A stretch of 36,741 nt of DNA from Candidatus Kuenenia stuttgartensis (GTDB lineage Bacteria > Planctomycetota > Planctomycetia > Planctomycetales > Planctomycetaceae): assembly GCA_945861465.1 (NCBI GenBank), contig CAMAVB010000049.1, positions 1 to 36,741 of the forward strand, read 5' to 3'. Under the pieces are notes generated by a model, which was given only the letters and a program-made list of their open reading frames with translations, was not told where the DNA came from and did no database searches. The translations under genes were made by a program, and so were the position numbers. Shown here piece after piece: positions 9,276 to 34,901 of the stretch. Each line of letters begins with the position of its first letter. Position 1 is the stretch's first letter.

Positions 9276-9556
9276 GGCGAGCGGCAGGGCGTCAGCCCTC
9301 CGAGTGTACTCGCTGATCCGGTGCCCGCGATTGCAAGCCGGTTTGATCGAACGAATGATTTGACCGCAGCCAGTGTCTGTCACCCATTCATTGATGGGTT
9401 GTGTGCCACTGGCTTTGCCAGTGCTCCTCATGCGCAGGAAGCACTGGCAGAGCCAGTGGCACACATCGAAACACAACTGACAAAGCACCAGGTTCGCGAT
9501 GTTTTATCGCGAGATTGGAAAGAATGGCTCGGAGGGCTGACGCCCAACCGCTCGCC
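9276..9556. repeat. Palindromic repeat family B, copy 3, interrupted by another palindrome
   Basis: The left arm at 9276-9304 (GGCGAGCGGCAGGGCGTCAG...) pairs with the right arm at 9528-9556. The 223 bases between hold the complete family C hairpin at 9401-9464 and a small stem TCGCGAT/ATCGCGA at 9494-9512. The arm marks (CA left, TT right) are swapped relative to copies 1 and 2, so it is inserted in the opposite orientation. No gene is seen in this interval. Confidence 0.85.
9401..9464. repeat. Palindromic repeat family C, copy 1
   Basis: GTGTGCCACTGGCTTTGCCA... at 9401-9424 pairs with 9441-9464 with one mismatch. Further copies are at 20218-20280 and 27798-27986. The leading bases TTGATGGGTT are shared with copy 2. 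Confidence 0.9.
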
Positions 9557-16185: not shown

Positions 16186-16375
16186 TTCCTGACCCTACCG
16201 GATTCTACGTTTGTGTTATTACGGGAAAGTCATTCGTTTAACGGCGAGCCGCAGGCGCAGGCGAATTCTCTGCCGCCTACGCCTGCGGCTCGCCGTTAAA
16301 CGAAGCATTCTCCCACACTCGATTTTCACTTGAAAACCAGTTGGGAGCTGCACATAGAATCCGGTAGAGTCAGGA
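16186..16375. repeat. Outer palindrome around a family A element
   Basis: Arms 16186-16209 (TTCCTGACCCTACCGGATTC...) and 16352-16375 are reverse complements with two or three mismatches. The space between them contains the complete family A palindrome at 16234-16303. The whole lies in the 273-base gap between two genes, which otherwise shows no coding signal. Confidence 0.8.
16234..16303. repeat. Palindromic repeat family A, copy 2
   Basis: Arms 16234-16257 (TCGTTTAACGGCGAGCCGCA...) and 16280-16303 are perfect 24-base reverse complements around a 22-base loop. It is the intact version of the copy at 207-274. Confidence 0.9.
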
Positions 16376-20172: not shown

Positions 20173-20217
20173 ACTCAACGGCACGCGAACGGTCTGTCAG
20201 TGATGGATTGATGGGTT

Positions 20218-20280
20218 GTGTGCCACTGGCTCTGCCAGTGCTTTATGCCGATGGAAAGCACTGGCAGAGCCAGTGGCACT
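20218..20280. repeat. Palindromic repeat family C, copy 2
   Basis: GTGCCACTGGCTCTGCCAGT... at 20220-20244 pairs perfectly with 20255-20279. The loop is ten bases. It lies between the PhoD gene and a family E element. Confidence 0.92.
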
Positions 20281-20305
20281 CATCAGCACACGGTTGACGA
20301 GGCAC

Positions 20306-27600: not shown

Positions 27601-27769
27601 TGTTGCGCACCTCAAGTTTCAAACATCGAAACTAGATGCCAAAGCTCGTGCGTGCCTTGACGCCATCGCGTCGCGTCGTCAGCGGGGCCACGACAGCAAT
27701 GCATTCGTACACTGCGAAACGATGGCTCGCCAACTACTGCAGTCGTCGCCGACGAACGTACAGCCTTGA
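24617..27769 (+). CDS. Membrane Ser/Thr protein kinase with N-terminal zinc-finger
   Basis: The 1050-residue product starts with an anti-sigma-type zinc finger (C6, H31-X3-C35-X2-C38, HVDGCPACRA). A PknB-like kinase domain follows at about 217-490: ASGGMGVVWRA glycine loop, VAVKL with K247, HRDLKPEN with D346, DFGLAK with D364, and MAPEQF. One membrane helix is at about 512-534 (ASLAGLPVMALLVGFLVSVK). The outer 500 residues are helical and TPR-like (SAAAFAEFRLGESIQRG, DAVAAIQDAAAALSDYL). GTG 24617 is the start: AAGGA lies seven bases before it and an in-frame stop is just upstream. Such kinases sense outside signals and often work with ECF sigma factors, but none is adjacent here. Confidence 0.92.
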   Translation: MNLRSCPDKSTLKAFAAGQLPGESSAEVSRHVDGCPACRAAVAEYNPSFLETLAPVSDNATECMVTKSPQSLRFIPHQNRESLSEESRGIVDGFAAALQSGADVDIALHLANHGIKSDSFDLSVEHVLLLLELLHVELQHAWANEAASSGGVDPAAAGSDHDSPVLPTTDQYVRRFPILRTCPLLVSDLAKREAVIRGFQVDDQRSNSATDTSGIEQFDLIEPIASGGMGVVWRALNRELGRTVAVKLIQQNKVVGNPERQQLYQQRFLVEAQAAARLMHPNIVQIHSIHNTAGQLYYEMDLIEGGNLRDLIKGDATVPAPRAVELMRDIASAIDHAHRRGVIHRDLKPENILMQDGMIPMVTDFGLAKLVDSDTALTQDDTAMGTMSYMAPEQFRDAASVTVSADIYSLGSMLYELLAGEVPIAYKGDITSFSDKVENFDPLPPQRRDRSISKDIQNVCLKCLAKKPEQRYASAADLTDDLTAFLEGRPVSARRVGPLGHFWRICRRYPKTASLAGLPVMALLVGFLVSVKFMLDARQQAMLGLGAVNQFYLQIDQNDVFRQPAFNDLRVRLMKEGRDRLKELTYAPVSSRDKSNQRAIATLHFVNGRSLQASEQSAAAFAEFRLGESIQRGLSQDDPTDLDSQADLATTLVAMEQVSPQHEDVPIWLEEAQSLRQGVAERLRDDDPRKPKSLRLLANVFMDKANRLAKPIIQGHLQATPETVEEALRLFREASQKRNQAAALLPTHTIDQGEKDALDRDIMIGKANLAALLSQVKERTPDAVAAIQDAAAALSDYLRDHPWDVEARRQYAECQLSKYLMADTKADTEISAIEEAERDADIVVAMIPNDVFVRHTVARIALEQAAEEIAGALDITMESNAESFTPAEYYTVAIEQLSRAFEHLPAEPEVSGKSAVINDSEFLTAVRLARTLAILIPLEGPTAATDSAPDDLRRNYLSQLQNARQHLYQPPPDALQITLNDFHEARIQMLAYSAVVAHLKFQTSKLDAKARACLDAIASRRQRGHDSNAFVHCETMARQLLQSSPTNVQP

Positions 27770-27797
27770 CCTCGTGCTCTGTCGGTCGTGTATTGCT

Positions 27798-27986
27798 GTG
27801 TGCCACTGGCTCTGCCAGTGTGCCCCCATTTAGTCGAGCGGCAGGAAGTTACTTACTAAAGTTGTAGCTGAATTCGCAAGAATTCAGTTCTTCGAGCAAG
27901 AGGTCTGAATTCTTGCGAATTCAGCTACGGAAAATCCATTGCTGCCGCTCGCCTTACAGGAAGCACTGGCAGAGCCAGTGGCACAC
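27798..27986. repeat. Three-level nested palindrome (families C, B-like, D)
   Basis: The outer family C arms are 27798-27820 and 27964-27986, perfect 23-base complements. Inside are B-type ends CGAGCGGCAG at 27835-27844 and CTGCCGCTCG at 27942-27951. Inside those, GTAGCTGAATTCGCAAGAAT... at 27864-27887 pairs perfectly over 24 bases with 27905-27928. In the other copies the family C loop is only 10-16 bases long. Confidence 0.92.
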
Positions 27987-28059
27987 AAAATAGGCGCTGA
28001 CAGCACACTATTGTGCGCATCGTCGACAGGACTTGAGCCTAGCTTTTCCCGACGGCGTT

Positions 28060-29448
28060 TCAGAAGAATCGGTTGATGCTCACGATCAACTCGCCGTCAA
28101 ATGCCCGGTGATTCCACGCATCACTCGCCGCCAGCGGAGCGGCAGCGGCCACCTGGATGCGAGTGTTTCGATGGATTTCGGCCGAAAGACCCGCCGTCAG
28201 ATTCAGCAGGTCAGTGATCCCGTTCTGGGAAAACACCAGCGACCCCGGCGAAGAACTGGAATTGAACGAACTTCCTCCGCCAATGTCCTTCGCATAATGG
28301 AGTTCCACACTGCCGTCGAGGCGCGTCAGATGCTTTGCAGTCGCCTTGTCGAAAAGATTGACCACGACTGCGGAACTCAGAAACATCAGTGTGGGTTCAC
28401 GAAAGCCGCCCGGCTGCTCGCCGGGTAACACAACTTCCTGGTCGTTCAACGCAAAATCGACTGAACCAAAGTATTGGAAAGTCGTACGGCTCAACAGTTT
28501 CGTCACGCCCGGTAACATGGAATCAAAACCATCGGTACTCGCCAATTGTGGGGTCAGAATCCCGCCAAAGAATGGTGCGAGATGCCAGGCTTCATTGTTG
28601 ACGCTGAAAGGACTTCCGAAAATCTGGCCTGTGACATCTCCGCCCGTGGGAGTAATGAGGCTTGATCCCACAACCACGCTGTACGAATCCTCCAGAAGAA
28701 TGGCTTGCTTCCACAAGATCGGAATGTTGCCGAATTCACCTGCTGATACGACGTAGCCGGGCTGATTGATATCCGCGTTGCCTGAGAACGGAAGGCGAAT
28801 CTCGACAGAGATGAGTTCATCTTCATTCAGGGTTTTTTCAACTCCAACCAGGAAACTGTCAAGGTCCTGACGACGCCCAAAGGAAGGAAGGCCGGGGTCG
28901 GTGGAGCCCGCTGCAATTGCGTTGTTGAAATGGCGATAGTCAGTGAACACGCGGTTCTGCGGCACGCCCTTGTTGTTATCTGCAATATTGAAGCGTGCGT
29001 TTCCACCCGCAGCGGGAATATCGGCGGAGAACCTCTTGGCTCCCTGGACATCCAGATTGGCACTGATCGACCCACTCGTCCCAAAGAAATTTCCATGAAA
29101 TTGAGCGGGGGCCAGAAGTGATTGATGTGACTGGCGACCTCGACGTGGACCTGTATCTGCAAGCTGCCGCCCACGCAGAAAATCGGGCGAACTGCTCCCA
29201 GCTGCCGACGTGCCCGGACGCCGCGTCCGCGGGGGTGTGTCCTGCAACTGCGGCAACTGATTCGCGCCGGGAGCGGGCTGATCGACTTGCGGGGCGCTGG
29301 TTTCGGTGTAGCCCTGCAAAACCTCTGCAGCATCAATCGGTGTGAATCCTGACAGTCCGCGTTCCTGAGCCCCAGCGCTCTCAAACAAGTGCGTTGACAA
29401 CACCGCAGATGCGAACAGAATTCCAGTGGCAATCTTGCTTCGTGGCAC
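28060..29448 (-). CDS. Outer-membrane beta-barrel-like protein of unknown function
   Basis: The 462-residue product has a signal peptide (PRSKIATGILFASAVLS, cut near ESAGAQ). A proline- and serine-rich linker follows at about 35-105. The rest has alternating short beta-strand patterns such as SFLVGVEKTLNEDELISVEI, DSYSVVVGSSLITP and RLDGSVELHYAKD, and a final phenylalanine (INRFF), the usual end of outer-membrane barrels. No named family was recognised. GTG 29448 is chosen: GGAG lies seven bases upstream and it opens exactly on the signal peptide; the frame continues upstream to 29514. The gene stands alone on the minus strand between repeat clusters. Confidence 0.75.
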   Translation of the reverse strand: MPRSKIATGILFASAVLSTHLFESAGAQERGLSGFTPIDAAEVLQGYTETSAPQVDQPAPGANQLPQLQDTPPRTRRPGTSAAGSSSPDFLRGRQLADTGPRRGRQSHQSLLAPAQFHGNFFGTSGSISANLDVQGAKRFSADIPAAGGNARFNIADNNKGVPQNRVFTDYRHFNNAIAAGSTDPGLPSFGRRQDLDSFLVGVEKTLNEDELISVEIRLPFSGNADINQPGYVVSAGEFGNIPILWKQAILLEDSYSVVVGSSLITPTGGDVTGQIFGSPFSVNNEAWHLAPFFGGILTPQLASTDGFDSMLPGVTKLLSRTTFQYFGSVDFALNDQEVVLPGEQPGGFREPTLMFLSSAVVVNLFDKATAKHLTRLDGSVELHYAKDIGGGSSFNSSSSPGSLVFSQNGITDLLNLTAGLSAEIHRNTRIQVAAAAPLAASDAWNHRAFDGELIVSINRFF

Positions 29449-29671
29449 AACTCTACTCCGTGAAACCAGACCGACGCTCCTGCGCACTTCGGCAGTTTCG
29501 GCTGCATGCGTCACGCACTTTCGTGGTCCAGTTTATGTATCGGAGTCTTCCCGTGGACTGCTTGAACCGGTCAGGACCGTGGCACCGATTTTTCCGAATC
29601 GATGAGAAGTGCCTCGCGTTCGGCCTCGACTGAATTGTGCATGAGGCAGACACATTCACGATGGTGTAATA
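29449..29671. other. Upstream region of the minus-strand barrel gene
   Basis: No gene, repeat or clear promoter is seen in this stretch. It should contain the promoter of the minus-strand gene. Confidence 0.4.
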
Positions 29672-29884: not shown

Positions 29885-29900
29885 CGAACGTCCTCGCTCT

Positions 29901-30027
29901 TAGGCGAGCGGCAGAAATGAATTTACCGGTACGACGGACTTCCTGTCCGTCGCAGGGTGCTACTCGACGGACTGGAAGTCCGTCGTCCAAATTGCGGATG
30001 GTAAGTTCTATCCTGCCGCTCGCCTTA
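29901..30027. repeat. Nested palindrome, family B-like ends with an inner hairpin
   Basis: The outer arms are 29901-29927 (TAGGCGAGCGGCAGAAATGA...) and 30000-30027, imperfect complements. The inner arms are ACGACGGACTTCCTGTCCGT... at 29931-29952 and 29965-29986, complements over 22 bases with one mismatch. The element lies about 85 bases before the sigma factor gene. Confidence 0.85.
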
Positions 30028-34822: not shown

Positions 34823-34901
34823 GTAGGCCGGACCAAGCGAAGCGCAGTTCCGGCAATCGTCCGACACCTGCCGGAACTGCGCTTCGCTTGGTCCGGCCTA
34901 C
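34823..34901. repeat. Perfect 33-base palindrome family G
   Basis: GTAGGCCGGACCAAGCGAAG... at 34823-34855 is the exact reverse complement of 34869-34901, with a 13-base loop. It separates the DUF1549/DUF1553 and DUF1501 genes. A weak outer pair TTGATTT/AAATCAA lies at 34804-34810 and 34918-34924. No T-run follows. Confidence 0.92.

Follow-up and report, generated by a model that had tools for sequence, protein, structure and literature searches.

We analysed a nested palindromic locus in a contig of 36,741 nucleotides from Candidatus Kuenenia stuttgartensis, hereafter the window, and find that it very probably consists of two nested non-autonomous elements, brought about by a single insertion of a unit termed B2[A] into the C loop of an older element, F[C], where the letter in brackets denotes a palindromic core and the one before it the surrounding shell. 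The original prediction of three palindromes nested inside one another at 27798-27986 was right about the locus and about the palindromes themselves, with C and A arms that are each perfect over 24 nt and with B-type ends, but its coordinates were shifted by one base (27797-27987) and a fourth layer, an F-type element outside C, had been missed. Since an F-type element with TGCTCTGTCA-like ends (27775-28005) has the C palindrome as its core, the anatomy reads F[C[B2[A]]], with the following parts:

27775-28005, no strand assigned: F[C] element, MITE-like, with ends TGCTCTGTC... and ...TGACAGCA around the C core
27797-27820, plus strand: left C arm
27821-27832, plus strand: original left part of the C loop, TGCCCCCATTTA, with the terminal TTA target at 27830-27832
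27833-27953, plus strand: B2[A], MITE-like, 121 bp, 12-bp ends and subterminal arms flanking the A core
27864-27928, no strand assigned: A core, REPIN-like, two GTAG-tagged 24-nt arms, inverted, with a 17-nt loop
27954-27956, plus strand: target duplication, second TTA
27957-27963, plus strand: original right part of the C loop, CAGGAAG, kept in empty loops
27964-27987, minus strand: right C arm

The C arms (27797-27820 and 27964-27987) are 24 nt each and 100% complementary with 143 nt between them, and the A arms (27864-27887 and 27905-27928), each built from a stem CTGAATTC, a GCAA loop and a stem GAATTCAG, are likewise 24 nt each and 100% complementary, 17 nt apart. Between C and A arms lie the B ends GTCGAGCGGCAG (27833-27844) and CTGCCGCTCGCC (27942-27953), with one mismatch to GGCGAGCGGCAG. 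A gene for a protein kinase (Pfam PF00069) ends in a stop codon at 27767-27769, 5 bp upstream of the F[C] element, which is placed between this gene and a convergent one on the minus strand (28060-29514). About 1.58 Mb of this genome (G000) were read directly, and the other ~6.6 of 8.2 Mb were covered by searches.

As originally predicted, the family C loop was opened by insertion. The 1.58 Mb contain 55 C palindromes with an empty loop of 16-24 nt, compared to 143 nt at the nested locus, the insertion point is exact and the TTA is duplicated. Excision of 27833-27953 together with one TTA in silico restored a normal loop, TGCCCCCATTTACAGGAAG, nearest to empty loops such as CCCCCCATTTGCAGGAAG, and this similarity was equalled by none of 5000 shuffles. 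As the restored loop matches the empty loops, the site of insertion, directly after the TTA at 27830-27832, can be seen as well as the duplication. The full arrangement of ~190 bp occurred only once in a genome-wide search of its own genome. The assumption that the 190-base unit is no fixed repeat thus holds for the outer step, where the arrangement is unique, and effectively fails for the inner step, where B ends and A core together do form a fixed repeat. In relatives, the search for the orthologous locus returned only distant homologues of the neighbouring gene (31-34% identity), and the DNA of the window was matched via repeats only. The compact C copies cited in the original prediction (9401-9464 and 20218-20280) were confirmed, with loops of 14 and 10 nt by the C-arm definition of the window, and belong to these features:

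9276-9556, plus strand: B1 repeat interrupted by an F[C] element (9374-9487), CCAG duplicated at 9370-9373 and 9488-9491
20200-20305 (outer limits approximate), no strand assigned: F[C] element, empty loop of 18 nt (10 nt by the C-arm definition of the window)

The first of these is a second, independent nesting within the window.

In a fold computation, a 241-nt stretch of the nested locus taken as single-stranded DNA reached -86.8 kcal/mol, with shuffled sequences giving -33.7 +/- 3.4 (z -15.5). Such a very stable fold at a site between convergent genes could be read as a functional RNA or bidirectional terminator kept as a unit, which we regard as exceedingly unlikely, given that the arrangement is unique while its pieces are dispersed repeats; the lack of an Rfam match for the nested locus also counts against an RNA. 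A secondary effect of the locus on transcript ends is possible.

The inner two layers of the nested locus, the B ends and the A core, are one MITE-like unit (27833-27953). Comparing the surrounding kilobase with 40 related genomes, we found about ten matches of ~100-130 bp at up to 92% identity in G011, a genome of the same genus. These span the B ends as well as the A core, representing 121-bp copies of the form GGCGAGCGGCAG...GTAG[A core]CTAC...CTGCCGCTCGCC at separate sites. Nine copies are full, three of them equal to the consensus, to which the window copy is 91% identical. Seven of the nine additionally carry a 3-bp duplication in their flanks (such as TTA, TAA, CTA or TTG), and B2[A] in the window is flanked by an exact direct 3-bp repeat, TTA/TTA. 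Since few intact B2[A] copies are found in G000, the unit is defined mainly from G011. A search of 18 genomes of the genus with exact 12-mer ends revealed no coreless B2 shell, compact B1 REPs being the only matches of that size. Three successive insertions, as originally proposed, are therefore at odds with B and A moving as a single 121-bp block in G011, and the A palindrome very probably arrived as the fixed core of B2[A], without a separate later insertion at the window. B2[A] further resembles a MITE in its size of 121 bp, its lack of coding capacity, its 12-bp terminal inverted repeats and subterminal arms, its dispersed copies (170 matches to the B2 end pattern in G000 and nine complete B2[A] units in G011) and a target duplication fixed at 3 bp in B2[D] and B2[A] copies.

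The length of this duplication is best seen from the sister element B2[D], which is found in the window as well:

29903-30024, plus strand: B2[D], same shell with an unrelated core, TTA duplicated at 29900-29902 and 30025-30027

The genome of the window holds 45 B2[D] copies of exactly 122 bp, the one at 29903-30024 included, with a mean identity of 98.9% to the consensus. The 3-mers left and right are identical in 45 of 53 B2[D] copies (TTA in 24, TAA in 20 and TAT in one), whereas shuffling of the right flanks gave a mean of 22.5 matches and a maximum of 35 in 20,000 rounds. The match extends to a fourth base in just one of the 53, indicating a duplication of 3 bp, which is a true one, being a direct repeat, since mere extension of the palindrome would yield TTA...TAA. 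B2[A] and B2[D] share their outer 25-bp arms (80% and 92%), while their cores are unrelated.

We propose a model in which an F[C] element with a normal C loop of ~19 nt would have been present between the convergent genes, into which the 121-bp B2[A] would have inserted once at TTA, duplicating 3 bp. Unit boundaries, duplication, restored empty loop and repetition of the block in a genome of the same genus can be read directly from the DNA, and we infer from it that F[C] preceded B2[A]. The insertion would most likely have been carried out by a DDE transposase of the cut-and-paste type, with the GGCGAGCGGCAG ends as its substrate. A TWA target with a 3-bp duplication, as displayed by B2, is also a feature of IS1031-type IS5 and of PIF/Harbinger elements.

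The concentric nesting could alternatively result from an element that targets hairpin tips, with three palindromes inserted in succession and each hairpin receiving the next one at its tip. To score this, we fused the flanks of 57 B2 copies and rated the best inverted repeat surrounding each insertion point, values of at least 12 being considered strong. Only three of the 57 copies (window, L113 and L204) lie in strong palindrome loops, with 1.5% of random non-coding TTA/TAA sites doing so and ~0.9 copies expected; without the window copy, which is ascertained, having been picked as nested, 2 of 56 remain. One of these, L113, is a clean second landing of a B2[D] in a palindrome loop and fits targeting of tips, as does the position of A at palindrome centres in 6 of 44 cases compared to 1.35% of control points. 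However, B2 uses TWA, mostly outside palindromes (54 of 57 copies, although 57 insertions give low power), B and A move as one unit and no empty B2 shell was detected, rendering successive insertion by a tip-targeting element very unlikely. Elements directed to REPs or hairpins are recognised by most of their insertions lying inside palindromes, which is not the case for B2. B2 thus appears to have no preference for tips, with a weak one being possible, and the landing of B2[A] in a hairpin tip was probably due to chance, non-coding space being limited.

A weaker form of the tip idea survives for the A core, not for the B unit, as A is centred in several unrelated palindromes. The 6 of 44 stem from A doublets outside G011 with a flanking palindrome scoring at least 9, the 1.35% from random non-coding points, and since copies of one composite were counted repeatedly, the independent cases number about 4-5. 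It is conceivable, yet in our estimation improbable, that core A and other REPIN-like palindromes favour the tips of unrelated hairpins, those of MITEs included, as entry sites and then spread via the MITE transposase. If true, this would amount to a two-engine hitchhiking in planctomycetes and could also account for published REP dimers within palindromes.

What is unusual about the system is that shared outer ends enclose palindromic cores which are unrelated and exchangeable, the remainder being mostly ordinary. B2 shells hold A, D or a 111-bp variant, D2, F shells hold C (43 copies), J (six) or D (L025), and an E shell with CCCCTGACAAAAC ends holds A. Core A has the form of a REPIN, with GTAG-tagged stem-loops arranged as an inverted doublet, and its arm is matched 42 times in the genome compared to 0 for the reversed control pattern. 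Within shells it is often accompanied by a target duplication, which movement of the IS200/IS605 type is not known to make. The exact A-arm 24-mer is shared by numerous further MAGs, most of them from planctomycetes, and the assignment of some to Poribacteria, Nealsonbacteria and the like may reflect misbinning. In these MAGs core A is mostly bare, with at least four further palindromic settings: an M shell with duplicated TTAG (L222, L244), an N shell (L234, L256), L233, and the loop of a GTAG palindrome (L262). In the latter case (L262:2257-2380) the loop of a GTAGGTCCGGC palindrome is occupied by an A doublet, and a copy of this palindrome at L240:7419-7500 of the same planctomycete MAG is empty. 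No duplication is evident around the A doublet at L262.

How cores came into shells allows for several candidates: REPINs may have inserted at hairpin tips, elements may have recombined with each other, or cores may have been captured by new ends. Two of these were weighed for the origin of B2[A], and both are compatible with the single insertion of B2[A] at the window. In the first, a RAYT-mobilised REPIN would have entered the tip of an ancestral B2 MITE by single-strand HUH transposition, the composite then spreading via its DDE-type ends. This would explain the REPIN form of A, its occurrence alone and in unrelated shells, and the filled and empty versions of one GTAG palindrome in one MAG, and REP dimers within palindromes have been published (PMC3733652). 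We nevertheless consider it somewhat unlikely, as neither a RAYT flanked by A, C or D nor a coreless B2 was detected. Slightly better placed, though still tentative, is an exchange of cores by recombination or template switching between MITEs sharing outer ends, without any insertion directed to tips. Here the common outer 25-bp arms of B2[A] and B2[D] around unrelated cores can be taken into account, as well as a chimera at L100:17560-17760 with a left F[J] and a right F[C] part and its junction inside the first C hairpin. It is, however, the one clear chimera, and the presence of A in shells with unrelated ends is left unexplained by homologous exchange of ends.

Searches for mobilising partners were carried out for both kinds of element. 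For an autonomous element with B2 ends, the Pfam profiles PF13340, PF13359 and PF13586 gave no match in G000 or G011, none of the PF01609 matches had B2 ends as termini, and a scan of the sample for long end pairs with a duplication returned only pairs of separate MITEs. Neither the 19 Y1_Tnp genes of the own genome nor ~30 loci from seven relatives included a RAYT with A, C or D on its flanks, and no clear RAYT was present near 65 A loci, so that the cognate RAYT flanked by the same REP, which characterises REPINs, was not found for core A. The sole nearby case is an F[D] element near the Y1_Tnp gene of L025, whose own flanking repeats differ. Other RAYT-like Y1_Tnp genes of the data set (L021/L080 on C111, L022 on C9 and L026 on C94) have arrays or pairs of their own repeats alongside, with B1-type repeats flanking L021/L080 and L022, and a CGTTTAACGGCGAGCCGCAGGCG family, also present at 207-274 and 16223-16314 of the window, flanking L026.

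Nested MITEs and REPs are already known kinds. Like B2[A], bacterial MITEs such as Nezha, Correia/NEMIS, ERIC and RUP are short and non-coding with terminal inverted repeats and a duplication of fixed length, and as here they are intergenic, occur in many copies and can be nested; in contrast, the centres described here are interchangeable REPIN-like palindromes, and no autonomous partner was found. Core A shares with REPINs the GTAG tag, the short stem-loop, the inverted doublet and a mostly extragenic location (Bertels and Rainey 2011, PMC3116915), but no RAYT is flanked by it and it often resides in a shell with a target duplication. REP dimers, GTAG or CGTC, were reported within long palindromes of Anabaena variabilis and Halothiobacillus neapolitanus, where no empty palindromes were described (Di Nocera et al. 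2013, PMC3733652), whereas the outer palindrome is here a shell that transposes and duplicates its target, and one such shell can hold several unrelated cores. ISPpu9, ISPpu10 and others insert specifically into REPs (Tobes and Pareja 2006, PMC1525189), which is alike in placing mobile DNA in a repeated palindrome and unlike B2, found mostly elsewhere, at TWA. Novel aspects are that cores are exchanged among shells and that a shell and its core are mobilised jointly, as the 3-bp duplication demonstrates; within an incomplete coverage of the literature, we found no paper on shell/core mosaics in planctomycetes. The locus can thus be considered a nested MITE insertion precise to the base, in which the order of events is readable, and indicates that REPIN-like palindromes can travel as exchangeable cores in target-duplicating MITE shells. 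This offers a testable reading of REP dimers in palindromes and a route for REPs to multiply without their own RAYT.

Regarding the outer shell, both F ends surround the core in 43 of 56 REPIN-type copies with a C core. Intact F[C] copies measure ~115 bp and are flanked by duplications of CTAG, CCAG, CTGG or TTAG. F is a candidate IS5-like MITE, for which a YTAR-like duplication of 4 bp would be expected. A strict search, selecting for exactly matching flanks, yielded just eight F copies (CTAG five times, CCAG, CTGG and TTAG once each), because ends and duplications have decayed, and at 27775-28005 the F[C] element has lost any recognisable duplication of 4 bp (CTCG/CACT).

Other long C loops were inspected as parallel cases and rejected: L122 harbours another element, L200 shows either decay or an insert of 120 nt that is not palindromic, and L107 and L172 represent wrong pairing or degenerate copies. 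At L122:3719-4155 the C arm is broken by an element with GTGCGACAAATAG ends and a palindromic centre of its own, having ~20 bp, the entire hairpin GCCACTGGCTCTGCCAGTGC, on both sides, which is unusually long as a target duplication. At L169:707-2431 (C1), an insertion sequence of ~1.65 kb with a DDE_Tnp_1 gene and TTGGACAGCGCCA ends resides within one A hairpin belonging to a B2[A] copy, and CTAA is found on each side. In the window itself, a bare J doublet (GTAGGCCGGACCAAGCG...) is located at 34823-34901, J being the core of F shells elsewhere.
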